A stretch of 64,000 bases of DNA, from the NCBI GenBank assembly GCA_964017145.1, contig OZ024843.1:3800443-3864442 (forward strand), written 5' to 3'. The notes beneath the pieces are model-generated. The model worked only from the letters and a program-made list of their open reading frames with translations, ran no database searches and was not told where the DNA came from. Of the stretch, positions 2,300 to 56,204 are shown in pieces; position 1 is the first letter of the stretch; each line of letters starts with the position of its first letter. Origin of the DNA: Agrocybe praecox (taxonomy: Eukaryota > Basidiomycota > Agaricomycetes > Agaricales > Agrocybaceae). Made by a program: the position numbers and the translations under genes.

Positions 2300-3130
2300 A
2301 CCAGTCATCGAGAAAGCCGTCTCCACTTACGAGTAGGAACCTTTCTCCAGCGTAGGTCTCCCAACCTTGCTTTACGACTTCTCCTGGTTCTGGCGGTTCT
2401 GGCTTAGCCTTCGCTTCTAGCGGGCAGTTCCAGCGGGGAGGGGCAATCCCTATAAAGGATTTGGCGTGCTGACTCTAGGTCCAGTCTTGGTGTTTCTGTC
2501 AGGTTAATCATCGTTAAATATGACGAAGTTGCAGTAGTCGAGTCGAGCAACTTTGCTCCTCATTCTGGTTCCATTTGTCAGTTCTCTTTCATGCTACACT
2601 TGCCAATCAGAACTTCTCCGACACCCTCTTGAAATTCTTCTGTAAACATTTGAAACGAAACCCTTGCTGCATGTTCAAGTTCTTAGAGATTTTCGTTGCC
2701 TTGAGCGTCACTTTAGCTTCTGACAGATCCAGCAAACCCAACGGAAGGGAGCTTTGTGTTTATGTGAATGTGTCTGACGCGAAGGAATCGTTGGCTGTTT
2801 CGCACTTCTGGAACTTTGGCTGCTTTTCATGCATCAGCTATCGTAAAAACGCCAGCTGATTTCCGCAAAGATATGATTTGATCACTAAGACTGATTCCTG
2901 AGATACGATTGTCGAGCCCCAACCTCGTTGCGGGCGTCTAGAATTCCGAGACGACAGAGTTGGGTTGTTGAATGAGTAAAAAGAGCTGTGGGGATCACTT
3001 GATTTCAACTGTGATTTCTGAGTTGACCTTTGCCCTACTATCGGTTCGAACTTCTTGTAAAGCGTCTTTGAAAACCGAGGCAACCGGCTTGTGTGATAGA
3101 TTGAGAGCGCCACTTCGGTAAATTGAGGCT
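2300..3130 (-). pseudogene. Decayed copy of the LRR-protein gene at 53586-56204
   Basis: The reverse complement aligns at nucleotide level with about 54470-55250 of the intact leucine-rich-repeat gene. Shared stretches include the segments around CTCTCAA-CTATCACAC, GCCAACGATTC-TTC, CTGGATCT-TC-GAA-CTAAAGTGACG, AAGAACTTGAA, and further down GAAGTCGTAAAG-AGG-TTGGGA. The reading frame is broken by stops and indels, and the first part of the gene is missing. It lies just downstream of the left P450, exactly as the intact LRR gene lies downstream of the right P450, so it is a passenger of the inverted duplication. Open frames on the + strand here are antisense shadows of this remnant. Confidence 0.85.
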
Positions 3131-3254
3131 GAAGCTGGCGCTGAAGGGCTAGTTAATACCATGAAGTCTAAGAGAAACACATTTTTAACATAAAACTATT
3201 ATACAAAACATTATATGCTACAATTTTCAATTTCTTCTTCCAGTTGGTAACAAA

Positions 3255-5463
3255 TCATTCCTGAAGCGCCCGAGAAATCAACATAGGGACTTCAGCCGCC
3301 TCCTTCCCAGCGACCTTCGGTTTGGCCACGAGGGAGAAGTGTACGTCGATGGGTGTATCAGGACCATTTGGAAATTCGAATACAAAATTGCGAATAAGGA
3401 TGGCGAGGACAATCTGCGTAAATGGCCATTAAGATTACGAGCACTATGGAGTGAAACTAATCATGAACAGACCTTTAGGTTTACTAGGGCGAATGCTCGC
3501 CCAATGCAGGCCCGTGGTCCGTCTCCAAATGTATACAAGCGCCTTAGGGTTGGACCATCTTCGGCCGTGGTGGCAGATCCATCGAGCCAACGGTCAGGAT
3601 TGAACGTCATCGAATCAGGCCCCCATACCGCGGCGGAGCAATTCATGTAGTGGTTAGGAATTATAATTTTCGTCCCCATTGATATAAAGACTTGATTAAG
3701 CGAGTTTCCAGCTAAGTCGATAATTGGCTCGCTGAGTTGGAGAATATCGTCTTCTGTGGCCTGGAATTTAATGATTAATTCGTACACAGATAGAGTTACT
3801 CTTAGCTTACTACACGAGGGGTTTCTCCAGTTGCAGGCCTCAGTCTCAATACTTCGAAGACGACAGCATCGAGGAAGGGGCATGAAGATTCCAGATACTT
3901 CCAGTCGTATTCTACCGCCGGAGATGCGCTGACTTCGATCCTCAGCCTGTCCTGGATATCTAGACGTCTGGCTAATTCGATCAGAGTCCACTAATGTCAA
4001 ATGCAGTACGTCAGACAGGTCGTTAATGGGGCCTGGCAGCTTTGACTGACCACAATGGTAACTAGACAGAGGGGCGAGTGTGGTAAATTCAAGGAAACGT
4101 GTAAGATAAATGAGACAACATACACGCAACGGGATCTGGTCCGGCAATGAGTATACTCTTCATCTAGATTTGGATCAGAATGTATAGAAAACACAAGAGA
4201 CAGTTTTCAAGCAACCTGGGCAATGATTAACTCTTTGCTTTCAGGTGTTTCTTCACCAGCGCCAATTTCAGAATCAACTAAGATACAATTACAAGTTAGC
4301 TTACTTGGACAGCCGGAAGAAATTATCACTCACCTAAGACACGAAGTAGTGACTTCTCGCTTCTCTCGCTCTTTAACATTTCGTTTTCATTCTTCAATTT
4401 CTCAAGCAAGTCTTCCGGTGTACCGCGAGCAGCAGCGGAGATATTTTCGGTCAACCGATTTCGCTCGCCAGAGATCTTTGCCACCCAGTGAACGAAAGCA
4501 GTCGGAACGAAGATTGAAGATATATATGCTAGAACTTCATATTTTGGTTGAGGGGTCGCGTTGAAAGTCTGAAGAGAGTGTAAAAGAGACGAGGGTTGGC
4601 CTTCAATGGCGTGCGGTTCAAGGTCAAATAATCCTCGGCCTACGAGGTCAATGCTAGAGACAAAGCCGCGTCATTAGATGCAAGATATAATACAATAGAA
4701 AGGCGTCTGCCCACAGCAATTTCAGCATCCTGGAAATAAAATAACGAGACAATAAGTAATTGAGTTAAGTATTTAAAAATTGGCTGCGAACCAATCATGA
4801 AGTTCCACTTCAGCTTTGGAACCTTCTTCTTTCGAATCCAATATCTTCTCCCAAGCTGATTTCAGCTGAATAAAGTTATTATTAATAAGTAAAAATCAAC
4901 AATGAATAGTGCTCCACGTACCCTATGTGTAGTTTCGAATAACACAGGCGCCATATTCTTGATAACTGCGCTGCTAAATGCCGGATTCATCGTCTTCCTC
5001 TGCCTGTCAGGTAATAAAATGTCAAGATCAGTTCCACAAAGATTGTCGTTCTGGCGCACCGTTTATGTTCGTCGCTTTCAACCCACATCATGCCACGCCC
5101 TACAAGCCGTTCGATAACTGCCCTCAGGCCAGCAGTTTTATTATATTTGAACGTATCTCTTGAGAAAATTTGGGAAACAGCCTTCGGGTCAGAGACGACG
5201 ATAGCTTCAGAGCCTAGCGGAAGAGAAATGCGATATACGGGTCCGTATTCCTTTGCCCATTGTTTATAAATCGCCTTGGGGTCAGGAGAAAGGCGGATAT
5301 ATCCTGTTTCGCCAAAGAAAAAGCTTTTCCTAGGTGGTCCACGAAGTCTGGTAGAGTTGAACAGTATGAAGCGATTTACGGTTGCTAAGAAAATGATAAA
5401 CACGGCCAGAGCGACCGCGCCCGAAGCAGAAAAATAGAGGGATGCGTGTTCCATGCTGGCCAT
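3255..5463 (-). CDS. Cytochrome P450 monooxygenase (left copy of a duplicated pair)
   Basis: Membrane-bound haem monooxygenase of about 500 aa, near-identical to the P450 at 51011-53221. An N-terminal membrane anchor follows the start MASMEHASLYF; then come a proline hinge (LRGPPRKSFFFG), the K-helix ExxR (EVLRLRP), the PERF-like DPDRW-type motif (NPDRWLDG) and the haem loop FGDGPRACIGRAFA with its Cys ligand. The I-helix reads AGPDPVAFT and is completed by an 11-nt microexon at 4051-4061. The usual Thr after the acidic residue is Pro. The gene is multi-exonic, and I found no frameshift or stop in the exons I joined; the stop codon is at 3255-3257. The start is set by homology with the right copy and by a TATA box 30 bp upstream. 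Its substrate is unknown. Position next to the UbiA/GMC cluster suggests a tailoring role (inference). Confidence 0.93.
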
Positions 5464-5493
5464 AACGGATAATAATTCTTGAGGTTTTTAGTG

Positions 5494-5501
5494 TTTATAT
5501 A
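5494..5501 (-). promoter_or_regulatory. TATA box of the left duplicated P450
   Basis: TATATAAA on the - strand, 30-40 bp upstream of the ATG at 5463, in a block also present upstream of the right copy (TATA at 50973-50980). The short distance implies a very short 5' leader. GCGAGCGAGAG-type repeats lie just upstream in both copies. Confidence 0.6.
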
Positions 5502-5814
5502 CCTGTGTTACTCTCGCTCGCTCTTGTTGTCTTTGTGGGTCAACCAAATTGTGACGCATCATCGGGTTGGTGTCATTATAGATCCAATCCCATGGCAAGA
5601 ACATTCAAGCCCCATAAGTGCCTTTGAGTTTTGATAGTCCAATGTAAAGATAATCAACTTCTAGATAACACCATATCACCAACGTTTTAGTGCCACAAAT
5701 CCGAGCCTAGGACGAAGAGCTGAGTTAACGTCCGGTCTTTTTTTCGAAACAGAGAACAGAGGAAGAAAAAAGGGTCTTTCGGCAACAAAAATGAGGAGAT
5801 CTGAGCGTTGGACG

Positions 5815-6080
5815 ACAGAGTCAGACATTTCAATCTTGATTAATGGTGTTGGATTTCAAATTGTTGGAAAAAAAATGAATGCTTCCATGACGATTCCTGG
5901 GATAACAGGGAAGGGCTTGTGTCATTTAGACGCGCGACTTCTCAGGCAAAAGTCTTAATCTTGACATTATGACGTTCTCTGGTTTTGTGGTCTTTTCTCC
6001 TAATAGATGGTTCTGAATAAGTCACCGACACTTTCAAAGTTTTATATGATCACCTTCCCTGCGACTCCCCTTGTCCTGTA
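5815..6080 (-). pseudogene. Decayed 3' end of an MGMT gene (copy of 49941-50670)
   Basis: The reverse complement of about 5881-6003 aligns closely with codons of the intact methyltransferase downstream of its PCHRV active site. Shared blocks include GACCACAAAAC/GATCACAAGAC, TTGCC-GAGAAG/TTGCCCAAGAAG, AATGA-ACA, TGTTATC and CATGGAAGC/TATGGAAGC. The frame has an early stop (TGA) and further changes, and the active-site region is only faintly recognisable up to about 6080. It sits upstream of the left P450 exactly where intact MGMT sits upstream of the right P450, so it is a passenger of the inverted duplication. Confidence 0.82.
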
Positions 6081-6194
6081 GGCATTTCGCAAGACGCAGT
6101 ATATTGACAGATAGAGATAGTAGATATCCCACTATTTTCAGCTTTTTTGTCTTGGCTCTCCGGTTGTCGGACATTAACCCGTAATAATCAAGTA

Positions 6195-6371
6195 CAGTCG
6201 AAATTGTCTTATCCCATAGCTCTCAGTGGACGTCCGAAGCTATGGGTTATTGTAGGTTATGGGTTATTGCAGGTCAAAACATCCCTCAACCGAGGAGCTT
6301 GTGGACAGAAAGCCTATGGGATTATGCAGGTTATGGCTTTATGCAGTTATGGGATAAGGCAGGTTCGACTG
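6195..6371. mobile_element. 177-bp non-autonomous Tc1/mariner (pogo-like) MITE
   Basis: Imperfect terminal inverted repeats begin CAGTCGAA and continue to CTTATCCCATA at both ends (left CAGTCGAAATTGTCTTATCC, right end reading inward CAGTCGAACCTGCCTTATCC). A TA target duplication flanks it at 6193-6194 and 6372-6373. The interior is made of GGTTATGGG-TTAT-GCAGG repeats and codes for nothing. CAGTCGAAC-type ends with a TA duplication are typical of pogo/Tc1-mariner elements. The open frames at 6147-6470 are an accident of this repeat. Confidence 0.85.
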
Positions 6372-6373
6372 TA

Positions 6374-8304
6374 CATGTATGTTCGTTCAGGTCCGTTCAA
6401 CTCAGGGCCTGTATGCTTCTGCTTTGACAACAGTCGCTCTTTGGACTGGCGTGGCTTTTTATTCAGATAGAAAACGAGCGTATCCAATTTGAAGGAAAGA
6501 TGATTAATTAGACATAAGGTGACAGTAGGGTTCAAGTTGCAATTACTAGTGGCAGGGCAAAATCAGAGCAGCGGCCTTCGAACTCCTTTGGAATTGAAAG
6601 TCACGCGCACATGTTGTTTAATGTACACCAAACAACCAAATATTGACAATCTATACTTTTTTAGGTAATACGTGCCAGTGAAGCACGGTGCCGAGGGTAG
6701 CTTTCTCTTGGCTTTCTCTAGCTTTAAATCAAAGCAATCATGATTCATCGACCTTGAAATTTGCGCGGCGCATTTAACGACGAAGATTTAACGGCAACTT
6801 AGAATATGCAACATAGCGCAATGTATTCGACCACCCGTTGATGCATGGATCCCGTTCATGTCAATAGCAAGTCAATGGTGTTCTCTTCGAAGTCGGATAT
6901 GCAGTGGGTCTTAAATTTTGCTATGAGCATTTCATCACCCTCTTTTTCAATCTCGTCATAGACACCAAAAACACACATAACTATCCATTACTTTACTGAG
7001 CCCACGATTGGGCTTCTCGAAGTTCTTGTCTAGGTCGTTATCCATTCGTTGAAGGTTTTAGGCATCATAGGACGCATCTTTAGTCTATGAATATCCACCT
7101 TTTGTCTTTTTGCCTAGGATTGGGATGTCTTTCACCCCTGCGGCGCCATAGAAAACACTTCACTGCCTCGCCATTAACATTTTTAATCGAAACGCTTGGA
7201 TTGAGAGCCCCAAAGACTTCCCGGACCCATTTTACCCTGCATTTGCTGTACGAGGGATGGGATATTTGGATTTGCGTATCATTTATCTCACATGCACCAT
7301 AGGTCCAGTGGAACAAACAGTCGTACCTCGGGGCAATAGACTGAATGGGGCACTGGATTTTTGCAAACCTGGATATACCGGAGCTCAAAAGCTCACAAAC
7401 GTTAAAACAGGAGAGTTCGACGATAGGACGGAACTGTACTTATGACAATATTGAATAGAGTTCTGTTATGGTCGCAAGTTTTAGGTATCTTTTGCCTTCA
7501 ATTCCCGTCGGGGGCCGGGAGTTCGATATCATTTGGGTTCTTCTATCTGATAATATCCTAGTGACTTGGGTAGTACTGTAGGACATGTACGTCAGTTTCT
7601 CCGTCGAAAGAATCTTTCTTACCTGACTCGCTTTCCGCCAGTTCGTCGTCCTCTGATCAAGTTGATCAAGAAGTTGTCATACCAGTGATTACGTTGTTTA
7701 TTGTCGGACATGGATACCATTTGGGAGAAGTACTTACTACCTTGTATTTCTTACGACTCCATTTTCCGTGAAGTTTCAGGGAGTGTCTAGTACCGTCATC
7801 GTCGAAGCAAGTGAGGACCGTTCAACATTCGTATGTCGAGTCGGGGATAACTTATTGTTTTGCTGCATGGGCGGTTAAAAATGTTGTTTCGTTTCACTCC
7901 TGTCAGGTACGTTGGAGCCACGTTTTCTCACCTACGCTACCCTCGCATTCACTAAAGGTGCCGAGTGAAGCACAACACCGTCGTTTCATTTTTATTTACA
8001 GACTTGGTCGCTAGTTTCTACCACACGCGATGGCAATATCGACTTTCCCAAGGGAGTTGTCGATGTCTCTTTGTGTCATTCCAGAATCCCTCGGGCCTTT
8101 GCCCTCGACGACTCCCGCTAGGATCAGTCGTAAACTCACCTATTTTAGTCTCGTAACAAAAACGGTATGGAAAGCGGAGGTTTCCTCTGCATTCTGTTGA
8201 CATAACGTCCGTCGTGTTGAATTGAGGCTTGGAATCGGGTTGGACACGATCTGTCGAGCAGGGAAATTGATTCATAATGTTATGGGTAAGCATTTGTGAA
8301 GGCA
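6374..8304. other. Intergenic region between divergent P450 genes
   Basis: About 1.9 kb without a gene I can support. Short open frames at 7080-7445 and 7811-8156 have no recognisable motifs. The region lies between the MGMT remnant/MITE and the second P450 and includes that gene's promoter at its right end. Confidence 0.5.
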
Positions 8305-8311
8305 TATATAA
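8305..8311 (+). promoter_or_regulatory. Candidate TATA box of the second P450
   Basis: TATATAA, 77 bp upstream of the ATG at 8388, in an otherwise mixed-composition stretch. Assignment rests on position only. Confidence 0.45.
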
Positions 8312-8387
8312 CGAGAGTCGCGTGGCTCATATCATCCATCGGGTTATTTCCCATCCTCCAAAACACTCTACTCTCGTTCTTCTGGCA

Positions 8388-10521
8388 ATGAATATGATTG
8401 CTCTTGGATGCGCCATTCTCGCGTGTCTTTTCCTTTATAAGCTCCTCACTTATTCGCCACGGAAGGACCTTCCACCTGGGCCCCGACCACTACCAGCGCT
8501 AGGAAATCTTTTGGATATGCCTACAAAGCACGAGTGGAAGACATTCTATAAATGGTCTCAGAAATACGGTACGCCCATGTACATCATTCCTTCACATACG
8601 CTTCATAACCAGCGTTTTCTAGGGGAGATCGTATATGTCACGCTTATGGGCCAGCCTATAATATTATTGAATACTATGGAATCTGCGACAAATCTTCTAA
8701 TAACCCGCTCGGCAAATTATTCTGAGAGGCCGACCATTCCTCTCTCAGAGATGTACATGTTCTGTTACCTGTTTGCTTCCATGATCTAACAGATTTACTT
8801 CTACAGAGTCGGACACTTAACCTTCAACTTTGGATTCATGTCATACGGTCACGAATGGCATAGCCGTAGAAGGATTTTTGCCAGTCAATATAATAAAGTG
8901 TACCTAAGTACATTCCACGACACATACAGAGCCGTCGCCATGCACATGCTTCGGGGATTCCAGACTAATCCCACAACTTATACCAATCATTTCCGTCTGT
9001 AAGTAATTGAATCAAATTAAAGATGATTTATTAAATTCACATGCCTTTAGGTTAACCTCCCAGTTGATGTTGGATATCACCTACGGCATCAAAATTGACT
9101 CCTTGGACAATAGATTGGCAAAAGCAGTCCAAAGTGTTCTAGACACTGTATCTCTCGCAGTAAGCCCCAAAATGATTCTCTTGAATCCTCTTCCATTGAG
9201 TAAGCAATGCCCCTAATTTACGAACACAAGCAATTAAGGAGCTAACTGTATCTTTAATCATAGTCCGCGTACTCCCCGCCTGGTTAAGAAATTTTACGAC
9301 ACCAGGTATCATCACAAGATGGTCGCAAGACGTTCAAGAACTTCTGAATGTACCTTTCGAAAAGACCAAGGCCGACATAGTGCGTAGTCTCTCCCTGCAC
9401 CAGCAAGATACATGGGTTTTAATGATTTATGCGAATACCACAGTTAGAGGGTACTTATAAACCTTCATTTGTCTCCGACCTTCTCCAAAAAATTGGGCCG
9501 GAAAAATCATGGTTGAATGAAACTCTTATTCGAGACGCCGCAGCCACTGCATTTGGTGGTATGTTCATATCTGCTTTAACACCTGGACGTATTGCTAATA
9601 CATAACATTGCAGGTGGATCCGATACTGTATGTTTCCCGTCATCGGATGGGAACGATCACGCTAACGCTTACTCTTTTCTTTTCTTAAGCTAATCTCTGC
9701 TTCGTCGACCTTCCTGCTGGCGATGCTCCTTCACCCGAATGTTCAAGAAATAGCTCACAAAGAGATCGATGCTGTGATCGGTACAGATCGCTTACCCGAC
9801 TTGTCAAATCGTGCAGAACTGCCATTTATTTCTGCCATCGTTAAGGAAGTTCTGCGTTGGCACCCTCCAGCACCATTAGGTATCGTACTTCTCCGATCCA
9901 TTACCTTCTGTTTTTTATTATTAAAAATTATGTAGGAATACCACACGCAGTAAAAGAAGACGACTGCTACGAGGGATTCTCTCTTCCTGCTGGCACTATC
10001 GTGATTGGAAATATCTGGTGAATATGCACGCTGTTTGATATTATTTTGGGCCACTTCATTAACAAATTACTTAGGGGTATCCTCCATGACCCAAAAATCT
10101 TTGAAAATCCACTCGAGTTTAGACCCGATAGATTCGTTGGATTATCAACAGAAGAGTCCGCAAAGATGGATTCACATTTGCGGATTGCCTTCGGGTTCGG
10201 AAGAAGGTACGTTGCTCTATTCTCCTTACAGGCACGTTCTTCTCATTCATGGTTGTAATTGATTGTAGAATATGTCCTGGGATAGTGCTTGCAGATGAAA
10301 TGCTTTGGTTGGTCGTAGCCCAATTTTTGGCCGTCTACACTATTTTACCGGATCCGCATTTCCCTCCCTCCGTTGAATTCACTTCGGGGGCCATTTCGTA
10401 AGTGTTGCACAATCTCTCTATAACCCTTTCTCTTACATATTCGAGCAGCGAGCCTGTGCCCTTCCGATACAGACTGAATTTCCGATCCGAAGAAGCTCAC
10501 TCACTCCTAGAAACAGATTGA
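8388..10521 (+). CDS. Cytochrome P450 monooxygenase (O-methylsterigmatocystin oxidoreductase-like type)
   Basis: Microsomal P450 of about 510 aa. The start MNMIALGCAIL begins a hydrophobic anchor, followed by the hinge DLPPGPRPLPALGN, the I-helix FGGGSDTLISAS, the ExxR motif KEVLRW, the PERF-type motif RPDRFVG and the haem loop AFGFGRRICPG. The sequence ends LLETD before the TGA at 10519-10521. Short introns interrupt it; the first splits the Gly codon of KYGEIVY. It belongs to the same broad class as the P450 at 28108-30316 (shared PPGPRPxPxxGN hinge, LRW ExxR and FGFGRR haem loop) and is unlike the duplicated P450. It is divergently oriented from the P450 at 3255-5463, and the decayed MGMT copy and a MITE lie between the two. 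A tailoring role in the UbiA cluster is inferred from context only. Confidence 0.93.
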
Positions 10522-10573
10522 ACGCCATTTCTCGACCAACGATAGCCACGCCCCTCTTAAACATAGGGTGTTA

Positions 10574-11505
10574 TAATATTGTATAGTAGTACGTTTGTAT
10601 TTTAGATCAGTTCAAGTTTGTTTTATTTAGTACGTAATATTGTATCCATAGTATGCTTGTATTTTAGATCGGTTCAAATTAACTTTATTTAGTATGTACA
10701 GTCATTCACCGGTCAATGACACACACCGGTCAATGACACAAACTCATATTCCGATCTCAAATTTGAATCGATTTCTTTGATTTCTTTTGTAATGTCTTTT
10801 TTAAATACATATCTATTATAATCCAGAATATCTAAAGCCCCGGGTTTTTACATCTTCTGATATTTATGAATAGATCAGATTTTGGGGAATTTATGAATAT
10901 TCGTACCGGATTTGCATTGCCACTCCTTCGAAAATTTTAATTTATTTCAGGCTGTTATTATTTAATCAGTTCTATTCGTCTTTTACTCGGTTCAATTTTC
11001 ATTTAAAATATCAAAGAGCCCAGAAAATCGCAGAACTGCAGAATTTGTGCTGAAAATGGATAAGAGGGCAAGTCACATCACGCATACCATTTTGGGAAGG
11101 AATCCATTTTCTTTCAGGGCTGGTGTATTTTTGGCAGACACGGACGAGGAAGATGGCGAGAGATCGGATTTTGGTGGTGGCTCAGATAATGACTAAGCCT
11201 TCCGAATGCAGAATATCACGCTGATGTGACTTGTGTCATTGACCGGTTTTGACATGATAAGGCCATTTCTAACTGATCTCGGATTGGGAGTATCGGACGC
11301 AGAATTTTGGCTAATTTGAGTCCATATATCAGTTCTTTACATACATATACATAATTCTATCTCCTTAATTTTTTTATTTTCAAATTTTTAAAAAACTTAG
11401 AGCCGTTTTAAATTTGGTTGTGTCATTGACCGGTGAATGACTGTAATATTGTATCCATAGTAGTACGTTTGTATTTTAGATCAGTTCAAATTAACTTTAT
11501 TTAGA
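10574..11505. repeat. Three copies of a 62-bp tandem repeat, split by a transposon
   Basis: The unit starts TAATATTGTATCCATAG and runs through GTATTTTAGATC and AACTTTATTTAG. Copies lie at 10574-10634, 10635-10696 and 11444-11505. The third is separated from the second by the 745-bp element at 10699-11443, which inserted at the TA that opens the third copy. Confidence 0.85.
10699..11443. mobile_element. 745-bp internally deleted Tc1/mariner (pogo/Fot1-like) element
   Basis: The terminal inverted repeats match perfectly over 24 bp, beginning CAGTCATTCACCGGTCAATG, and TA duplications flank the element at 10697-10698 and 11444-11445. The core ACCGGTCAATGACACA is repeated just inside the left end, and a related copy lies internally at about 11232-11246, which suggests subterminal transposase-binding sites. 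An open frame of 63 codons (11008-11196, + strand) ends in an acidic tail ADTDEEDGERSDFGGGSDND before TAA. It could be the residual 3' end of a transposase gene. No DDE core is present, so it cannot move on its own. Confidence 0.88.
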
Positions 11506-11727
11506 TTTATGGTTAATCCGTGCTTTTTTCCCCGCCAGCTTTAGAATGCTTGTACATAGGACAGCAGTAGAGGAATAGATGTCTGTATGATGATGCCAAG
11601 CGAAAAGAATTCCGAGTTGATCTCCTCAAGCATAGAGGGCTATACATGCAGTACTAGTGTACAAGCGAATGTAATTGTGCCAATATTACAGAATAATAAA
11701 AATCTAAAGGGTATCTAATAGCTGAAG

Positions 11728-13405
11728 CTAAAGTGCTTCGGCTTTTACTGTATGTCTGCCGCTTTCCACGTCCATGTCGCGCTGCGTTGGAAATTGGGTT
11801 AGCTGATATTTAAGTATGAAAAGAAGAGAACGAAAGAAACCCTTCCACGTACTGAAAGATCAACCTTTCCGTCCGCTGCCCATGGCCCACGTACCATCGT
11901 AGCGTCCGTGGTACGTTCTGTCACCCGCGAGACCTGGAGACGCATGCCGACTGACTCGGTTTGCATAGAGCCTCCAGTCGAGCCGTTGTTCAGGGATTTA
12001 CGTCCATTGAGGGTTGCCAGCAAACTGTTCGAGTATCTAGACAGAAAAAAAAAAACAGAACCTTAGTCGATGCACTTTGCAGTAGAAATCGACACTCACA
12101 GTTTTGCGAGGATAAAGGCGGGAACGTAGTGGTAGTTGTCTGCAGGATAAGCAACAAACAGGGCAAGATCTATGCCGGCGCAGATCACGGTAATGCTACC
12201 AGTCTGAATGGCGTTGATGATGAGTCTGTTGAACAAATTTTCCGTGCGCGACCAGGGTGTTCTTGATTTTGCTGTGAGGAGCTAAAAATCGGAATATAGT
12301 CAGTCATAAATCTATATGAAGCTCGATATATGTGTTGCCAGGACATACAATGTAAAGCATAGCGGCGGAAATGAGGATGTCCACGGTAAAGCTTCCTGCC
12401 AACCAGTACTAAACAAAGTTGTTGCATTAGAGGAATCCTTAATAATGAAAGTGCCCATAGGACCTGCCTCAAATGCCGGGTGCAACTCCAATAATCTTTT
12501 TTGGGTTTTGTCGAACTGAATCTATAAAAAGAAATCTTCAGCGCCTGTTTGATATAGCAGAGTACGGCACTTACGACAATGGAGGTAACAATAGCAGTTG
12601 CACCTTGCGAGACAGCAATCTATACGTTTCCTTTAGCGAAAATATTTTTGGGTGCCAGTTCTCATAAGAACTGACCAGAGAGATGACCACAGCCAATCCT
12701 CGCATCACTTTTGATGGTGCGAGTACCCAGATACGCCTTGACTATTATTAGATAATGTATTGACCTTTTGTCGATATTTATGGCTCACCAAGAATAGAAT
12801 AGCTGTACGATGGAGGACACTTAGAATAGGCGGTGTCAGTCAACGGATAGATCCTGTCAAAGGCTAGAATACTCACCTAATCCAGCAAACAAAGGAACGG
12901 TGGCGGCGCTCCAAGGGGAATCTCTGAGGAAGACAGTGGCATCGGCCCAGTTTCCGACGGTATAGTACCAAGTGACATGCGTGGTAATAACGGTTTGAGC
13001 AATGTCAATCATCAAGACAATGTAGACTGTTTTTTCGAGATAAGAGCGTGCAGGGATAAATAATTGAAAATTTTACCTAGTAGACGGATCGAAAGCCTGT
13101 CGTGTCCGAAATGGTTTTGGAAATACCCTAGGGCGAGGGTATTAGAAATCTGCAGCGAGATCGATTTTCCGTATGGCACTCACAGACTTGCACGATAAGA
13201 GTGCCCATCAGCAACCAGTTGAGCCATGAACCAACGGCCTTGCAAAAACATCGATTAGTGGAATGTACACATCACTGAGAAAGATTATGTATACCAAGGG
13301 CCCGAAGCTAGAGAAAAAAAAATCTAGTGAGCCGTCTTAGAGAACTTTGAAAACGTACATCTGGGGAGCACTGGGTAGGACAAGTGCAGAAGCGGCATCT
13401 GACAT
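11728..13405 (-). CDS. DUF6534-type multi-helix membrane protein A
   Basis: A basidiomycete-expanded integral membrane protein family of unknown function, with about seven predicted helices and a cytosolic tail. Visible pieces in order are the start MSDAASALVLPSAPQ, FGPL, the first helix AVGSWLNWLLMGTLIVQV, the family motif YFQNHFGHDRLS, a helix with HVTWYYTVGNW, RIWVL, and the tail hallmark SLLATLNGRKS-type (here LATLNGRKSLNNG). The last intron uses GTACGT and a GCTAAC branch site; splicing it gives a C-terminus VDLSRDMDVESGRHTVKAEA followed by TAG at 11728-11730. If that intron is retained, the protein instead ends near 11799. It is a paralogue of 23219-24900, and the two flank the pair of GMC oxidoreductase genes. 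A transport or receptor role has been suggested for such proteins only by topology. Confidence 0.85.
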
Positions 13406-26355: not shown

Positions 26356-27444
26356 ATGGAACAGTGCAAGGCTTACTCGACGTTCGCGCCACAGCACCTC
26401 GTCGACAAACTTGTTTATAATTTGTACACGGCCTTCTTATTCACAAAGTCAGACATCAAAACAACATTAATTCCAATCGTAAGTTGTGGCACCGTAGACG
26501 CTCTTACTTTTTTATTTCTTCAATTCTGACTTTTTTCGGCAGACATTTTTTGCTGCAGCCGCAGCACCGATTACAGACATTGCGCGACTACCCCATGTCA
26601 TGTTCTGGATATGGCTTCACCTCCTCCAATTCGACGTATCTAATCAGACCGTGAGCCCGGAAGAAGACGAACTAAACAAGAGGGACAGACCGCTCCCTTC
26701 CAAACGACTGACATTGGAACAAGCCCTCTACCTTCGTTATCTACTCGTTCCTGCATGCTTCCTGCTTTCATTAGCCTATAGCGTGGAAGCGCTTTACGCA
26801 AGCATCGCCCTTGTATTCCTCACGTTCCTATACGACGAGCTTGGAGCTCACTCATCACACTGGATCATTCGAAATGCCGTCAACGCGTTCGGGTTTGCTT
26901 CCTTCGAAGCCGGAGCTACCCTCCTAGCCGGTATGTCATCCTTACTATTCATTCATTCTTTTTGTATGCTTATCTTTTACCCCTACAACCCAGGCCGAAA
27001 CCCACATCATCTACACAACATCGGCATACTCGCTATATGCTTTAGCGCTGGTATCTTTGCCACCACAATCCAAGCACAAGACTTCAAAGACGAAGAGGGC
27101 GATCGCACCATTGGGCGAAAAACCATCCCCATCATGTTCCCTTCCGTAGGGAGATACACCGTCATCATACCCATGTTCGCATGGTCCGTCGGCCTGTCAA
27201 TAGTCTGGGGATTGGACATTTTGACCAGTATTGTGTTTGTTTGTTTGGCGTTATGGGTCGGTGGGCGCTTTGTGGCGTTGCGGTCGGTACCTGCCGATCA
27301 GGTCACCTTTTATTGGTACAATGTGAGCGTCTATGGCTATACTTCGCGCCATAGTGTTCTGATATACTTCTTTGACTATAGGTGTGGTTATCTGCAGCTC
27401 ACGCGCTTCCCGGATATTACCATCTTTTCGTCAAAACATTGTAA
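26356..27444 (+). CDS. UbiA-superfamily membrane enzyme (prenyltransferase or UbiA-type terpene cyclase)
   Basis: Exons 26356-26478, 26543-26930, 26994-27322 and 27382-27444 join in frame to 300 aa, the normal size for UbiA proteins. After the N-terminal MEQCKAYSTFAPQHLVDKL the protein is mostly transmembrane helices. Both Mg2+/diphosphate-binding Asp motifs are visible: the first is NQTVSPEEDELNKRDRPLPS (about residues 78-97), the second DFKDEEGDRTIGRKTIP. These motifs bind a prenyl diphosphate in the membrane. Fungal members include aromatic prenyltransferases and non-canonical sesquiterpene cyclases such as the fumagillin cyclase. The first motif differs from the NDxxDxxxD of COQ2/COX10-type housekeeping enzymes. 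No polyketide or aromatic-supply gene is nearby, so a terpene cyclase using farnesyl diphosphate is my preferred but unproven reading. It is the only scaffold-forming enzyme in the P450/GMC cluster. Confidence 0.92.
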
Positions 27445-28107
27445 AGTTCGGAAGAAATTCCCTCCGAGTCCAGCCTTTAAAATTCCTATAATTTCATTTA
27501 CCATAACTCAGGTCTATAAAGTACGTTTTATAGATTAATCGATTTAGATACTTTCTGTGCTTCATGCCCAGAATACTGCAGTAATAGAGACAACAACCAC
27601 TTCCAGACTATCCCATCTCATTCCAAAGTATCATCCCTATGTAGCGTAGCTTTCCGTGTGTATAAATAGTCACCAGCATTGATACTCCTGTAGGTTTATT
27701 TACGATTTGTAGTACATATATACGATATATCAAGTTCAGAGCAACATTCAGTTTTCTTACATGTATCAACGCTTCCTCGTATCAAAGATGCGCAGCTCTG
27801 TGTACACCGCGGACGGAGCATCTTCCCAAGTTCCCATGTCTTCCCTTCAAGTCGATAATCCTGAAACTTGCACATCTTATCAAACTTTAAATTTTAATTG
27901 GTGAGAACGTGGGTGGCGCACGAGTCAGGCTGTGCTCGACAGGCACTTATGTTAAGTAATCTTCACGACCTGTTACCACTTACGAACGACGGACAACCAC
28001 CAGGCTCAATTGAAAAATGGTGAGCGCAACGTGGTATGGTGTTACACATATTCAGTTGAATCAGTTCCAATAACGTCACTTACATATATGCATATTATAT
28101 ACCTCTA
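27445..28107. other. Convergent 3' region between the UbiA gene and the third P450
   Basis: AT-rich, 663 bp, no gene. It is expected to hold the two 3' ends and polyadenylation signals. A TATATA-rich stretch lies at about 27715-27730. Confidence 0.5.
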
Positions 28108-41340: not shown

Positions 41341-41808
41341 ATTTTTGTTTGCCTATCGTCTGGGTTGTATATAAAAGTATCCATGTATAAATGACCCAAT
41401 CATCATTAAATATCCAAAACTCCGAAGGAGGCAATGGAAAGTTATAATCACCCATCATCGATATTTAGCGCAAGCATGAACTTGGAAGTCGACTTTAGGC
41501 ACGGGGAGAGCCAGAGTCTGATCCCAAACCCGTCTGTATGTCCTTATGAAATTGAATTCTCTCCAGATTCCACCAAACGTTTAAACCCCTTCTTAGCAAC
41601 TTTTTATACTGCTCTCACAGCAGGCTATGCATCTATGATCTAAAAGAAACTGCATTTGCCTTGGATTCGATTCGTGTTTGAAAATATGGTGTGCGGGTAG
41701 ATTCAATACCATTGGAATCCGAAAACGGGTATGCTGCTCGTGAAATATTTTGAGTTTTGAAGTTTTTGGATTTGACGCGATCTAGTTCGTCCTTACGGCG
41801 TGTGTCGG
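41341..41808. other. Convergent 3' region between URB1 and RSA3
   Basis: 468 bp with only a short open frame (41434-41643) lacking features. Probably 3' untranslated sequence of the two ribosome-biogenesis genes. Confidence 0.5.
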
Positions 41809-44809: not shown

Positions 44810-45004
44810 TAATCACCCTTTGGGTTGCGCAACACCTGCTTATATACCCTCTTTTGTTTTGATCATTTTGAATACTGGACGCCTCCTAGATTAACACAAA
44901 TTCGAATGATTATTTTTTTAAAAACAATAAAGACATTAACGTTGGAGGTTTGTAGTAAGGAGCAAAGTCGGTCCACTGTAAGATATACACAAGATGAGGA
45001 AGAA

Positions 45005-46940: not shown

Positions 46941-47439
46941 CTGCAACTTTTCTGAAAGGGGCTCGAAATGGTATGGTTTTGGTCGTTGTCGTAAGTCAAA
47001 GCCACCCTGAGTCCTGATCGTCGGTTCGGAGCCAAAATTGTGCGGCACGAAAACTGGTCTGTCCGACAAACTACATTCCATTTTCAACGACAATGACTTT
47101 GCAAGTTGCAAAATGCAAAAGCAGATGCATGGATAGGTGAGAGTTCCGAAAGCGCTTAGAATGTGGAACTGATTCGAATGACAAATACCTTGCAAGTTTC
47201 ATCCCAGAGACTACTAAGATGAGATAACAAATATATGCATTGATTGTAAATAATTATATAATGTCCTGGGGTAAATGCGAATTATATTACTTATGTAAAG
47301 TAATTCTGGTGGGTAGCATCTGTTTCCGTATATACACACATTGAGCTATTGCTACAGAGAGTACAAGATTGGTGGAAATGGAAGATGGAAGATGATATAG
47401 GATGTAGGCAATTGAGAAAAACATGAGGTATATGTCCTA
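46941..47439. other. Intergenic region between the two SAMHD1-like genes
   Basis: About 500 bp: promoter of the left copy and 3' flank of the right copy. A frame upstream of 46940 has no family residues. Confidence 0.5.
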
Positions 47440-49624: not shown

Positions 49625-49940
49625 AGTGGCGGGAGAGAGGAAACTGAAAGAAGATCTTGGTAAGTTGGAAACAAGTTGGAAAACAAAGAAGGCTTGGGCC
49701 TCTCCGAGAGTCCGAGTCCCGACTCAGGGGCGTTGTTTGGATGTTTCGTGCGTAGTAAACAAAGCCCTTAGCCGCCGACATCACATGATTCGTTCTTGCG
49801 TTCCCCAGGGGCCAGGACCCTTGAACAACTTGCTAAAATGCTCTTCATCCAAGGACCAACTGATCCGCTTGAAGCCTAGTACCTGCGGACTGCCACCATC
49901 TTGAATTCATTCCACTTCCTGCTTTTCTATCTATCGGATA
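49625..49940. promoter_or_regulatory. Bidirectional promoter of SAMHD1-like and MGMT genes
   Basis: A 316-bp interval between the ATG at 49624 (-) and the ATG at 49941 (+). No TATA box or named site was recognised. Both products act in DNA maintenance (dNTP pools and alkylation repair), so shared control is plausible but inferred. Confidence 0.5.
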
Positions 49941-50670
49941 ATGCCAGCTCAAAGGAGTGACCCTAGGAAAACACCGGATACTCTTTTAAAATCCCGATAC
50001 TTTACGAAACATGTTAGGACAGAAGTGCAACCTCAGGCAGTGAACTGGACAGACAGAGATAGTCATGAGGACCCACTCGACGACCGACCACAAAAAAGTC
50101 AGGACGAAATAGAGCCAGTACGACGCGTCTATCCGCTAACTTCCGAGCAGCGAAATGCCTACAGAACACCATCAGGAAAGGTGATGGGCTGATTCAATTG
50201 AAGGTCTTAAGGCAAGTCCTAGTGACTCATTGCGAATCCATTTCCCAGGTTTTGTCACAATATCAATGGGACGTTTACGACTTCGTCAAGACTATCCCAA
50301 CGAGCAAAGTTACGACCTATAAGGACGTCTCACTGGCCATTGGGGGGTCGCCTCGCTCGGGTCAGTACTAAGTAGCATTGACCCTTGTGATGAGATTTCT
50401 TTTTTGCTGACTGTGTTCTATTTAGTCGGAAATGCCTTGAGAAACAACCCTTTCAGTCCTTACATACCTTGCCACCGAGTCATTGCATCCAACCACTTTG
50501 TTGGTGGATTCTTTGGCGAATGGGGAAAGGATCACAAGACGGGAAAACGTTGCAATGAGAAGATTTTGGTTCTTGCCCAAGAAGGCGTTCATTTCAATGA
50601 TACAGGCCATCTTTTGTTATCTGAAAAATCCTTATGGAAGCCTTCGGCCTCCCAGAAAAACCTTTTGTAA
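49941..50670 (+). CDS. Methylated-DNA-protein-cysteine methyltransferase (MGMT-type)
   Basis: A suicide repair enzyme that moves the alkyl group from O6-alkylguanine to its own Cys. Three exons give about 190 aa. A polar N-terminal extension (start MPAQRSDPRKTPD) leads to the DNA-binding domain WDVYDFVKTIPTSKVTTYKD and VSLAIGGSPRS. After an intron comes VGNALRNNPFSPYIPCHRVI with the active-site Cys in PCHRV, then GGFFGEWG. It ends LWKPSASQKNLL with TAA at 50668-50670. Introns are GTGATG...CAG (about 50181-50249) and GTCAGT...TAG. A decayed copy of its 3' part lies at 5815-6080. Human-type MGMT has a longer N-terminal domain, which is reduced here. Confidence 0.93.
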
Positions 50671-50972
50671 TCTAACACTGAACTCGCCTCATTTTTGTTG
50701 CCGAAAGACTTTTTTTTCTTGCTTCGTTTTAAAAAAGATTGGACGTTAACCCAGCTCTACGTCCTAGGCTCGGATTTGTGGCACTAAAACATTGCTGATA
50801 TGGCGTTATCTGGAAGTTGATTATCTTTACACTGGACTATCAAAGCTCAAAGGCACTTATGGGGCTTGAATGTTCTTGCCATAGGACTGGATCTAGAATG
50901 ACACCAACCCGATGATGCATCACAATCCGGTTGACCCGCAAAGATAACAAGAGCGAGCGAGAGCAACACAGG

Positions 50973-50980
50973 TATATAAA
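50973..50980 (+). promoter_or_regulatory. TATA box of the right duplicated P450
   Basis: TATATAAA, 31-38 bp upstream of the ATG at 51011, conserved in the left copy at 5494-5501. The upstream block 50730-51010, with GAGCGAGCGAGAG, is shared by both copies, so both may answer to the same regulators. Confidence 0.6.
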
Positions 50981-51010
50981 CACTAAAAACCTCAAGAATT
51001 AATATCTGTT

Positions 51011-53221
51011 ATGGCCAGCATGGAACACGCATCCTTCTATTTTTCTGCTTGGGGTGCGGTCGCTCTGGCCGTGTTTATCATTTTCTTAGCAACCGTAAAT
51101 CGCTTCATACTGTTCAACTCTACCAGACTTCGTGGACCACCTAGGAAAAGCTTTTTCTTTGGCGAAACAGGATATATCCGTCTTTCTCCTGACCCCAAGG
51201 CGATTTATAAACAATGGGCAAAGGAATACGGACCTGTATATCGCATTGCTCTTCCTCTAGGCTCTGAAGCTATCATCATCTGTGACCCGAAAGCTGCTAC
51301 TCAAATTTTCTCAAGAGATACGTATAAGTATAATAGGACTGCCGGCTTGAGGGCAGTCATAGAACGACTTGTAGGTCGTGGCATGATGTGGGTTGAAGGC
51401 GACGAACATAAACGGTATGTAAGAAGGGCGATATTTGTTGAACCAATCTTGACCTTTTTAATACCTGTCAGGCAGAGGAAAACGATGAATCCGGCGTTTA
51501 GCAGTGTGGTTGTCAAGAATATGACGCCCGTGTTATTCGAAACTACACATAGGGTAAGTGGAGCATTATTCATTGACAATTGTTGGTTTCTAATTAACGT
51601 TGAACTCTACTCAGCTGAAATCGGCTTGGGAGCAAATCCTGGATTCCAAGGGAGGTTCTAAAGCTGAAGTGGAACTGCATGATTGGTTCGTAGCGTTGTA
51701 TTTACTCAACGCATGGCCCAGTATTATCTCATGATCTTATTTCCAGGACGCTGAAACTACTGTAAGGGAAATGATGTATCACATCTTCTTATGATTCACT
51801 TTATCTAGTATTGACCTCGTAGGTCGAGGATTATTCGGTATTGAAACGCGCGCCATTGAAGGCCAACCCTCATCTCTTTTGCATTCACTTCGAACTTTCA
51901 ACGTGACCACTCAACCGAGGTTTGAAATCCTCGCATATGTATCTTCAATCTTTGTTCCCGCCGCTTTTGTCCACTGGGTAGCGAAGATATCCGGCAAACG
52001 AAATCAATTGACCGAAAACGTCTCTGACGCTGCTCGCGGTGCACCAGAAGACTTGTTCGAGAAATTCAAACATGAAGACGAGATTGAAAAGGCCGAGAGG
52101 AGTGAAAAATCATTGCTCCGACTCTTGGGTAAGTAATAATTAATAAACTCTTTGACTGGCTACTCGACTCCTAAACTTCATCATAAACAGTTGACGCTGA
52201 AATTGGCGCTGGTGAAGAAACACCGGAGAGCAGAGAATTAATTATTATCCAGGTTTCTCTAAACATACTCTCGTGACTCCCAAAGAATGATTTCTTATCC
52301 AACCCTAATAGATGAAGAGTATACTCATTGCCGGATCAGATCCCATTGCATGTATGCACCTTATCTGTATACCTTACGCTTAAACTCATGTGACCCACCT
52401 TTTCATTTAGTTACCATTGTGGTCAGTCAAACCTAACCATGTTTAACGACCTATCTGACCTGCTGCATCTGGCATAGTGGGCCCTGATTGAATTGGCCAG
52501 ACGTCCAGATATTCAGGATAGGCTGAGGACCGAAGTCAGTGCATCTCCGGCGGTAGAATATGACTGGAAGTATCTGGAATTTTCATGCCCCTTCCTCGAT
52601 GCTGTCGTCTCCGAAATCCTGAGGCTGAGACCTGCGACTGGCGAAACCCCTCGTGTAGTAAGATAACAAATCATTTCTCTGTGATGCATAACCAATGATC
52701 ATCAAATATTTCAGGCTACAGAAGATGACATCCTCCAACTCAGCGAGCCAATCCTCGATGCGTGCGGCAATTCGATTAATCAAATCCATATATCCAAAGG
52801 GACAAAACTCGTCATTCCTAACCATTACATGAATTGCTCGCCCGCGCTATGGGGACCTAATTCCATGGTGTTTGATCCTGACCGTTGGCTCGATGGCTCC
52901 TTCAGCAAATCCGAAGATGGTCAAACTCCTGGACGCTTGTACACGTTTGGAGATGGACCACGAATCTGCATTGGGCGGGTATTTGCAGTAGCAAACCTGA
53001 AGGTGTGTTTGGCTTTAGTTATATCATATCTCGTGCTCGTCATGTTAATGGTCACTTATCAGATTACCCTCGCTATTCTTATTCGCAATTTTATCTTCGA
53101 GTTCCCAAATGGTCCTGATACACCGATCGACGTGCACTTCTCACTCGTGGCCAAGCCGAAGGTCTCTGGGAGGGATGCCGCTGAAGTTCCTATGTTGATT
53201 TCTCGGGTTCCTCAGGAATAA
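51011..53221 (+). CDS. Cytochrome P450 monooxygenase (right copy of a duplicated pair)
   Basis: Intact P450 of about 500 aa, differing from the left copy at only about one residue in twelve over the first exon (for example WG for SG near residue 14). Motifs in order: anchor after MASMEHASFYF, hinge LRGPPRKSFFFG, I-helix AGSDPIAFTIVWALIELARR, ExxR EILRLRP, DPDRWLDG, haem loop FGDGPRICIGRVFAV, tail VPMLISRVPQE with TAA at 53219-53221. The I-helix is joined from an exon ending at 52351, an 11-nt microexon (52411-52421) and an exon starting at 52478. This is the only solution I found that keeps the frame and the family motif. The Thr usually following AGxD is Pro. It lies between MGMT and an LRR gene, outside the main cluster, and is probably the parental copy. 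Confidence 0.94.
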
Positions 53222-53585
53222 ATATGGACTCTTACATTGACTCACCGATAATGTTTTGCGCGATAATCCAGATTCTCTAAATGACTCCGAAATGCATTAA
53301 CTTGCCTCTCAATTTTAATGATAAATACAAATACAATATCAAATTTTTACAACAGAAACAACCCAAAACAGCACCGTGCTACTTTGGTGCTACTCGTTTT
53401 GGTTGTGGAAACTCGAGGGGCTTTGAATTGTTGTGGAAAAATAGGGGCTAATTACACTTTGCGGAGTTTGAAACAAAATATGCCTCCGGCGCGACGCGAC
53501 TTGATATTTACCACTACCAAAGTACTACACAGTATACCTTTGAAACTGGAAAGAACTCCTTGGATCCCCTGAAAAGCATATATCA
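53222..53585. other. Intergenic region between the P450 and the LRR gene
   Basis: 364 bp, AT-rich, no gene. This interval and the first third of the LRR gene are absent from the left duplication arm. Confidence 0.5.
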
Positions 53586-56204
53586 ATGTCCAGAATACCC
53601 CAGCCATCGTCCTCCAGACTGAAGCCTCCAACTACACCGGGGAGCTTGAAAACATCATCGACAACTTCTCCCAGCTCTTCGAGAACGAGAACAATATCTA
53701 GTATTCAATCTAAGACTCCTACAAAACCCCGCTCAACGCAGAGCAAGCCTGCAGAAATGGAAGCTGCTGCTGTTCCGGCACTGAGTATCAAGGAAGCAAT
53801 TGCCTTGAAAAGAGCTGAGGCACGGAAGGCTCAAATGAGCAAGGACGTTAGTAGTGGCATGAACATGGGAGGATTGGAGGATGCCTTACCAGAGCTCACA
53901 AAGAAACCTCAAGAGGAAGAAGATCTTCTTGGAAGACTTCCTGTTCGTGAAGCTATTGAGCATGCAAGGAGTACAGGTGTGTACATTCCCTTGGTGTCTT
54001 GACGCGATATTAATATATGTAAAAGGGACTTTAAATCTTTCAACTCGGTCGCTTCCTTGTTTACCATCGGTCTTGTTTGAGATACACTTGGGTCTGAAAT
54101 CCGATCCTCTCCGCTCTGTGCCAAATGAACCCGAGCTACCTTTGACAGAGTCGAAATCTTCCCGCAGAGGCGGTGACAAACCCGCTTGGTTTGAAGCTCA
54201 AGATCTCACGGTGCTAAAAGCATGGAACAACGATATCCAAGAAATACAGCATGAGATCTCTCTGTTCGGATCCTTGAAGACTGTTGACGTAGGAATATCT
54301 ATCCATTTTCTTTTATACTAGACACTAACTTGTCTCCCAGTTGCACCAGAACAAATTGACATCTCTTCCCAATACCTTTGTCGATCTCACATCTCTCACC
54401 ATTCTAGACCTATCTTACAATTCACTCACTTCATTGCCCCAGAAATTATTTGCTCTTCCCGAACTGACAACTCTCAACCTATCACACAACAATCTAATTG
54501 CCCTGCCTTTCAACGCCCCCTTTGTAGGAAGCGATGGCAGGACAAGGCCCACCCAGCAATCGAGTGGTGGATTTTTCACGCCTGCGGTTTCTCACTCGAC
54601 AACCCCACTTCCTCGACTCGTTACTCTAGACGCTTCTGACAACAGAATTGTGGCTAATGCTATCGATGATCGTATCCCGGCTTTGATAACAAAATTAGAT
54701 CTTTCTGGAAATCCGCTGGGGTCTTCACAGCAACTTATGCGTAACTTGTCTACATTGTCAAGGTTGAAAGAAGCCAAATTTGAGAAATGCGACATAGCAA
54801 ACGATTCTTTCACGCCCGATACGTTCAGTTCGATTCCATTCCCTAGTATTCGCCTACTGGATCTATCGGAAACTAAAGTGACGCCTGAAGCAGTGAAGAT
54901 TTCCTTGAAGAACTTGAAACAAGAGCTTAATTTCGATTTTTCTACTGAGGATCCTCCAAATGGTGTCGCAAGAATACTGGTCGGCAAGCGTATCATTAAA
55001 GAATCCTGGGAACTGGAACTGGAACGACGTGCAGAGGCGAGAACTGCAGCAGCTTCGGCATTTAATGATGATTGGACAGAAGCGCCACTTCCAGCAAAAC
55101 CAACGCAGTCAAAAGTTGAACCACAGCCGAAGGCCAGGCCTGCACCAACAAAACCACGCGAAATCGTGAAGGAGGCTTGGGAAATCGAAGCCGAACAAGG
55201 GTTGCTAACAGAAGGCGGAAGACGTCGAGCAAGGGCTGCTGCTGCTGCTGCCGCCGCTAAAGATCAAGAACAATCTGCTTCTGATCGTACCGCTAGTTCA
55301 CCCTCTTCATCCAATGGCTTGAGCAATCCGCAATACTATACAAGCAACACTCAAACTTTACGACTTCCAGCTTCCGCGCCATTGACCAAAGCAGGAGGCC
55401 ATGCTCGTGCGTTCTCTATGGCTGCCCCGTCCGCTCTTTCCTCGGCGGTAGGGCGCACTGGAGATATAGAAGTCCCTACTCCCACTCTGCCGTTATCAAC
55501 GATAGTTGCCCAACCATTCGCTCAAACCTTGCGAGTTTTAATCTTGGTCAATCGTCGAATGGACAAATCATTCGCCCTTCCTGCCTTCTCTGACAGTCTA
55601 AGCGGGTTCCTACCATGTCTAGAGGAACTAGACCTGGAAGGCTGTAACTTAGCAGACACAGTGTCGGTTTATACAGCCTCTGAACTGAATTCAGGGACAA
55701 GCACCCCTCCTCGCTCGAACGAGCTTATCATTCCAACGTTGACGAGACTGTTCCCCAGCTTGCGCACACTGAACCTTTCATACAATTTTCTGACGGATGC
55801 ATCACTAACCCCCGAGGCCCTCTCCAATCTTATCTTGGTTTCTCCGCATAGAAAGGGCCTGCGCCACTTGCGTCTGCGGGGCAACCGACTCTCGGCACTT
55901 GAAGGGTTCGTGGAACTGGCCGAGCAATTCAAAGGCAACAGACAAGTTCCTGAATGGAAACTGGAAGAGCTGGATTTGAGGGATAATGAAATTGGTAAAC
56001 TCCCTCCCGTCATGGGCCTACTCCCGTTGGATGTATTTTTGGTGGAGGGAAATACGTGAGTTCATTTTCGCACTTGGTTAAAAAAATTGTCGCTGAATTA
56101 TTCTACGATAATCGATTGATAGTTTCCGAGTCCCTCAGAGGCGTGTTTGGGAGCGTGAGGGTACGAAGGGACTGTTGGGTTGGTTGCGAGGAAGGATGGA
56201 GTAA
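53586..56204 (+). CDS. Leucine-rich-repeat protein (LRRC40-like)
   Basis: A protein of about 790 aa in four exons. The N-terminus, from MSRIPQPSSSRLKPPTTPGS, is Ser/Thr/Pro-rich and basic and probably disordered. SIKEAIALKRAEARKAQ is helical. Classic LRRs follow: FGSLKTVDLHQNKLTSLPNT, LTSLTILDLSYNSLTSLPQK, LTTLNLSHNNLIALP. A disordered middle part has an Ala tract (RRRARAAAAAAAA) and EAWEIEAEQG. A second LRR block has LEELDLEGCNL, LRTLNLSYNFLTDASL and LEELDLRDNEIGKLPP. The last exon ends LLGWLRGRME with TAA at 56202-56204. The architecture resembles LRRC40-type scaffold proteins, with no catalytic domain. A decayed partial copy is at 2300-3130. Confidence 0.88.

Follow-up and report, generated by a model that had tools for sequence, protein, structure and literature searches.

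A mirrored cytochrome P450 duplication in Agrocybe praecox, with decayed passenger genes and a tract of presumed gene conversion

Introduction

How does a cytochrome P450 gene come to stand twice on one chromosome, intact and in opposite orientations, while the genes that flank it are broken at one of the two sites? The question is raised by a 64,000-nucleotide stretch of Agrocybe praecox DNA (the window; all coordinates below are positions within it), which corresponds to positions 3800443–3864442 of the 4.33-Mb contig OZ024843.1 (assembly GCA_964017145.1; genome 59.17 Mb) and contains no N. Near its two ends lie a left and a right arm, each holding a P450 gene between sequences related to MGMT and to a leucine-rich repeat (LRR) gene. 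The locus presents a pair of inverted paralogous segments, P450 frames that are open and under purifying selection, passenger genes that are broken in one arm, and a sharp step in identity between the arms.

The best overall explanation, which is held here with good confidence, is a single inverted copy followed by decay of the passengers, retention of the P450, and later conversion. A segment of around 5 kb that starts within MGMT, takes in the complete P450 and promoter, and ends within an LRRC40-like gene would have given rise to one inverted copy around 44.5 kb away on the same chromosome. The passengers, presumably truncated on arrival and functionless, would have decayed neutrally, while the P450, complete with its promoter, would have remained under purifying selection at both sites. 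Ectopic gene conversion (or crossover) between the inverted arms may later have homogenised some 530 bp of promoter and gene start, leaving P450 proteins that are 18% different past codon 88 beneath a nearly identical 5′ region. The locus is a new, clean, and well-preserved instance of known processes; no description of it was found in the literature, as judged mostly from titles and the opening parts of abstracts.

The duplicated segment

Comparison of the whole window with itself returns one long inverted match, between 3257–5812 on the left and 53219–50671 on the right (80.9% identity, E = 0), with further inverted, colinear pieces at 2506–2826/55073–54767 and 2197–2252/55589–55533. Under looser scoring, the long match becomes 3257–6000/53219–50522 at 79% and the LRR portion 2488–3121/55087–54456 at 63%, with left-arm pieces at 2318–2413, 2265–2317, and 2197–2252, giving a total of five pieces in mirrored order. 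The same looser scoring found no direct-strand match between the arms at E values up to 1. No blastn extension of the arms was obtained past 50.5 or 55.6 kb on the right, with nothing aligning beyond 55589, and tblastx past the MGMT end gave a single weak piece of 22 residues (6050–6115/50190–50125), which was not used.

The duplicated unit therefore measures around 5.1 kb on the right (50.5–55.6 kb) and 3.9 kb on the left (6.0–2.2 kb), and it contains the 3′ end of MGMT, the whole P450, and most of the LRR gene. From the P450 stop codon to the first aligned LRR base is around 1.2 kb on the right versus 0.13 kb on the left, the left arm being short there by around 1.1 kb, comprising the spacer and the 5′ part of the LRR gene. 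Between the arms lie around 44.5 kb of unrelated genes, including a NopRA1-like gene (131.5 bits). A first-pass annotation of this DNA had described an inverted duplication spanning 53 kb, with the order MGMT–P450–LRR at about 50.4–55.3 kb mirrored at about 6.1–2.3 kb. Self-comparison and Pfam agree with the inversion, the mirrored order, and the coordinates; however, 53 kb is the span of the arrangement and not the size of what was copied. That self-comparison answers the dot-plot check proposed there: similarity extends beyond the P450 into both MGMT and LRR sequence.

All ten introns of the P450 are common to both arms, and the promoter and parts of both neighbours are duplicated with them. 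The event was a DNA-level, intron-bearing segmental duplication; origin as a retrocopy was considered and rejected on account of these introns. No third copy was found in the 59.17-Mb genome by a search with the right P450 DNA, which recovered only itself and the left arm.

The two P450 genes

The right P450 gene (51011–53221, plus strand) encodes 543 amino acids and the left gene (3255–5463, minus strand) 544, each in 11 exons and each intact. Both are hand-made spliced models whose exon borders were set from the arm alignment and the splice signals with the aim of an open frame, and all ten introns are GT-AG in both copies at matching exon positions; in either copy the long exons stay open whatever borders are chosen. 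The left gene had been called intact in the first-pass annotation, and its model indeed carries neither stop nor frameshift. Decay of the left copy through weak splice sites was also considered and set aside: the donors differ (for example, GTGCGC and GTGGGC), yet all begin with GT and no frame is broken.

Membership of the P450 family (Pfam PF00067) is evident from the C-terminal frames, which score 51.4 and 66.1 bits (above the cut-off in both arms), with the N-terminal frames slightly below the cut-off of 22.8 at 20.5 and 20.8 bits. The two models contain FGDGPRICIG and FGDGPRACIG, together with EILR and EVLR, corresponding to the heme-binding (FxxGxxxCxG) and ExxR motifs of cytochrome P450. 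Of 544 aligned positions, the two proteins share the same residue at 458 (84%). Between the arms, length has changed in all ten introns but in only one of the 11 exons, by 3 bp or one codon. Exons 7–9 (3811–4163 versus 52312–52657) are also rather alike, at 89%–100%, with intron 8 at 84%; either an older second tract of conversion or constraint may account for this.

Beyond the two arms, a protein search of the genome found further P450 fragments, none above 45% identity; the best ones lie around 150 kb past the end of the window on the same contig. The nearest named homologs of the window's proteins come from Agrocybe pediades, Galerina marginata, and Psilocybe. In a midpoint-rooted tree of 12 P450 proteins (the two arms and ten outgroups), the arms pair with support of 100/99 and end branches of 0.082 and 0.092, and the Agrocybe protein is next; the duplication would thus be younger than the split from that protein, if the latter is the ortholog.

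Selection on the P450 pair

Nonsynonymous (dN) and synonymous (dS) divergence over the whole gene give a dN/dS of 0.17 by NG86 (0.081 and 0.477), 0.20 by LWL85 (0.083 and 0.424), and 0.26 by YN00 (0.092 and 0.358); for codons 136–543 alone, the NG86 values are 0.096 and 0.61. Pooled introns have diverged by 0.32. When neutral evolution of the left copy was simulated at half this intron divergence, 1 of 2000 runs remained free of stops, and 23 of 2000 did so at half of that again. Rates are balanced between the copies, with 23 changes on each P450 branch when the Galerina protein serves as outgroup and chi-square values of at most 1.38 against all seven outgroups. Low dN/dS, length-stable exons, the neutral simulation, and balanced rates together indicate that both copies are maintained by purifying selection, and both genes are presumably expressed.

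The passenger genes

On the right, the MGMT-type gene (50069–50670, plus strand) is represented by two open frames in which the domain and, in translation, a PCHRV motif are found. PF01035 scores 39.4 bits at 50323–50667 and 21.5 bits at 50069–50368, the latter below the cut-off of 27. The genome holds two matches to this family, of which this is the better, the weaker lying on another contig. The left arm retains only the last part of the gene (5856–6021, minus strand), at 64% identity over 50522–50667 of the right arm and with a tblastx match of 6021–5878 to 50501–50644. Adjoining this broken end is a 181-bp repeat with terminal inverted repeats (6193–6373), resembling a miniature inverted-repeat transposable element and presumably Tc1/mariner-like. 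At least 44 matching pieces occur elsewhere in the genome, and most of the 13 copies that were aligned start with TACAGTC and finish with GACTGTA.

The right LRR gene (LRRC40-like; 53600–56059, plus strand) consists of a long open frame at 54329–56056 with Pfam LRR matches and a 5′ part known from translation only, so its start is approximate. Its homologs number 616, the best 120 of which are 49%–85% identical, and those that are named are fungal; the 85% identical database protein (P0217) lies on a 20.9-kb contig. The left counterpart (2197–3121, minus strand) survives as four colinear pieces with 71% identity over 805 columns when aligned with cheap gaps. Within those columns are 24 insertions or deletions, 19 of them frame-shifting, and five in-register stops occur in 268 codons. 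Searched against its own genome, the right LRR protein has this remnant, with eight stops, as its second match, and is itself the only intact one of the two; a search of the genome with the right LRR DNA recovered itself only. When the LRR comparison was repeated with reversed sequence as a control, only two chance matches appeared, of 15 and 17 bases (E = 4.9). With frameshifts and stops set against an intact parent, the left LRR sequence is an unprocessed pseudogene.

The first-pass annotation had recognised the left MGMT 3′ end and LRR gene as broken, and had proposed that selection kept the P450 while these decayed. Both statements hold. Differences between the arms fall at first, second, and third codon positions in a ratio of 54/40/129 in P450 codons 89–543 versus 78/63/94 in the LRR remnant, so that a dN/dS of 0.17–0.26 in the P450 stands beside differences spread over codon positions in its passenger. 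The broken passengers here offer an internal neutral yardstick for the enzyme gene with which they were duplicated.

A tract of raised identity

Similarity between the arms is far from even, a feature absent from the first-pass annotation. At 50741–51274 on the right (plus strand) and 5200–5733 on the left (minus strand), covering the promoter and P450 codons 1–88, there are 26 differences in 534 columns (95.1% identity) versus 78.9% identity outside, and identity drops inside exon 1. The longest identical run is 125 bp; none of 5000 permutations reached either this run or the identity of the tract, and the tract score of 300 compares with a permuted maximum of 97. The borders vary with the mismatch penalty, tract length being 515, 534, or 676 columns and identity 95.3%, 95.1%, or 93.3%, respectively.

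Sites under little coding constraint show the same step. In the promoter part of the tract, 251 of 270 positions are identical (93.0%) versus 397 of 537 in introns (74%; P = 1e-11). Codons 1–88 are 97.3% identical in nucleotides, and the NG86 dS of codons 1–80 is 0.056, around one-tenth of that of codons 136–543. Fourfold sites differ at 3 of 38 positions in codons 1–80 versus 51 of 176 beyond (P = 0.0066). Among residues, 85 of 88 are identical in codons 1–88 versus 373 of 455 beyond, where 18% therefore differ (P = 0.00017). Gene conversion (or crossover) between the inverted arms would best explain this tract.

Because differences in the tract amount to 4.9% (7% in its promoter part) versus an intron divergence of 0.32, the conversion would be roughly one-sixth to one-quarter as old as the duplication, assuming similar rates. 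The first-pass annotation had given about 92% identity for the first exon, together with a shared promoter, and held that selection apparently kept only the P450. High identity is confirmed (93.6% over exon 1); however, since later gene conversion best explains the unevenness, that figure measures neither the age of the duplication nor selection, and the tract would mislead any dating of the duplication from the first exon.

The neighbouring gene group and retention of the left copy

Why the left copy was kept is a separate matter. A group of P450, GMC, and UbiA genes is present beside it, as Pfam finds; the first-pass annotation had spoken of a UbiA cluster bordered by the left P450. A neighbouring P450 lies at 8271–10403 (plus strand; approximate borders, Pfam), which pairs by tblastx with 28.2–30.2 kb. 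There follow a DUF6534-like region at 12.1 kb (below the Pfam cut-off), two GMC oxidoreductase regions (15–16 kb and 20–21 kb), a DUF6534 region at 23.6 kb, a UbiA prenyltransferase family gene at 26498–27535 (plus strand; open frame, PF01040, 93 bits), and P450s at 28–30 kb (minus strand) and 32.5–33.8 kb (plus strand), the GMC, DUF6534, and P450 regions being Pfam matches. The UbiA protein is 90% identical over 80% of its length to a database protein (P0121, on a 64.8-kb contig) and 81% identical over 78% to one from Agrocybe pediades.

Further structure was seen in the window. A second inverted P450 pair (8514–10403/28236–30163), with protein pieces 28%–69% identical, is nested within the first, and a DUF6534-like pair lies in the same orientation at 11907–13235/23306–24719 (pieces 52%–83% identical). 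Short repeats of around 60 bp and an inverted, perfect 27-bp match occupy 10574–11504. Outside the group, a tandem gene pair (45229–46673/47934–49390; pieces 30%–75% identical) has no Pfam family above the cut-off in the frames scanned, and an open frame at 60980–62536 matches glycosyl hydrolase family 85 (75 bits).

Recruitment of the left copy into this putative biosynthetic group, which the first-pass annotation had proposed as the reason for its retention, is possible but doubtful. The left P450 stands 2.8 kb from another P450, beside the two GMC, two DUF6534-like, UbiA, and two further P450 regions at 8–34 kb, and it is under purifying selection. However, it shows no shift in rate and its promoter is still that of the parent. 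UbiA stands between the arms at a similar distance from each, 23.5 kb from the right copy and 21 kb from the left. Furthermore, a P450 beside other P450s is unsurprising because 111 exon-level P450 matches are listed in the search of the genome. As first stated, recruitment was thus a conjecture beyond the observations; if the left copy does serve the UbiA group, the locus would document the arrival of a tailoring P450 at a cluster.

Another reading, which we regard as unlikely, is that conversion between the inverted arms is itself selectively maintained: promoter and membrane anchor would be kept alike, so that the copy at the cluster border and its parent are co-regulated as their catalytic parts diverge, and crossovers may flip the intervening 44.5 kb.

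Direction of copying

The left unit ends inside MGMT and inside the LRR gene, and both genes continue beyond those points on the right; for this reason, the right locus is likely the source and the left the copy. The opposite course, in which the left site was the source and later lost its MGMT and LRR genes, draws on the fact that passenger decay by itself cannot separate source from copy, and on a P450 homolog in Psilocybe cyanescens that lies 22 locus tags from the LRR gene rather than adjacent to it. We judge it improbable, given that the right MGMT and LRR genes extend past both ends of the unit and are, respectively, the best of two PF01035 matches and the only intact one of two LRR matches in the genome.

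Linkage in relatives was approximated by asking whether P450 and LRR homologs lie on contigs of equal size in the six named species whose P450s are closest. This was so in three of the six: P. cyanescens (with the locus tags 22 apart), P. cubensis, and Crassisporium. Cyathus striatus, Lyophyllum shimeji, Collybia nuda, Pluteus cervinus, and Sphagnurus paluster have more distant P450s (33%–37% identity) on contigs that differ in size from those of the LRR homologs. The comparison among the six hints at an old P450–LRR linkage, not at adjacency.

Conversion or constraint

The tract might instead reflect no conversion at all, constraint on the promoter and N terminus simply being stronger than elsewhere in the gene. 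Promoters may hold conserved sites, exons 7–9 are fairly alike too, and against the Crassisporium protein the N terminus is somewhat better kept than the rest. Nevertheless, codons 1–88 are only 33%–55% identical to seven outgroup proteins, and the ratio of N-terminal identity to that of the rest, 1.18 between the arms, is 0.77 to 1.11 in the outgroups: below 1 in five of the seven, equal in Agrocybe (1.01), and higher in Crassisporium (1.11). The P450 N terminus therefore does not appear unusually conserved between species. Silent-site divergence is near zero in the N-terminal part, and the step in identity falls within exon 1. Constraint alone is thus very unlikely, and localised identity beyond chance (permutations) and beyond constraint (silent and promoter sites, and seven outgroups with a small protein margin) argues for conversion. 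Since that protein-level margin is small, it is the silent and promoter sites that carry the argument.

Several points weigh against the account as a whole. The small protein margin (1.18 versus 0.77–1.11) is one; in addition, the promoter part of the tract lacks a cross-species control, the fourfold test rests on 38 sites, and column permutation ignores natural rate variation along the gene, in which exons 7–9 are also alike (89%–100%). The outgroup comparison is at protein level only, and neither the direction of copying nor the conversion is polarised by it. Two P450 exons have lengths of just 15 and 11 nt, and the models are in part open by construction; the MGMT and LRR genes of the right arm are known only partly, from open frames or translation. 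Concerning linkage, the P450 and LRR contigs differ in size in Galerina and Crucibulum; those of Agrocybe are not comparable, the LRR record being on a short contig and possibly from another assembly; and the distance of 22 locus tags in P. cyanescens does not single out the right site.

An assembly artefact or uncollapsed haplotype has practically no probability, as no supporting point was found, divergence between the arms is 21% outside the tract and extends to all ten intron lengths and to gene content, and both arms lie in one 4.33-Mb contig within a window free of N.

Comparison with known systems

Among individual P450s, the two proteins share with ClaW of Ampulloclitocybe clavipes, which presumably belongs to clavilactone biosynthesis, membership of a broad P450 group (36%–38% identity). 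ClaW, however, falls in a separate clade of the 12-protein tree, and a common reaction is not implied.

As regards process, the inverted duplication with passenger decay and presumed conversion has partial counterparts elsewhere. The aflatoxin cluster has been described in terms of gene duplication and modules (PMC1949824), and the likeness lies in duplication supplying cluster genes; however, the cluster role is known there and putative for the left P450, and ‘gene conversion’ occurs 0 times in that text. In Aspergillus flavus and A. oryzae, a report of recursive ectopic gene conversion (PMC12844118) describes conversion between ectopic paralogs of one chromosomal region, with deletions and gene loss; several other gene sets and repeated events are involved there, in contrast to the one pair and one clear tract of the mushroom locus. 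A parallel within the gene family comes from Anopheles funestus, where paralogous P450s carry a first-exon conversion that has almost reached fixation in one population and has been discussed in relation to insecticide resistance (PMC7297382). Both cases concern paralogous P450s of one region with a first-exon conversion signal, but the presumed mushroom event is old, involves inverted copies 44.5 kb apart, and includes the promoter.

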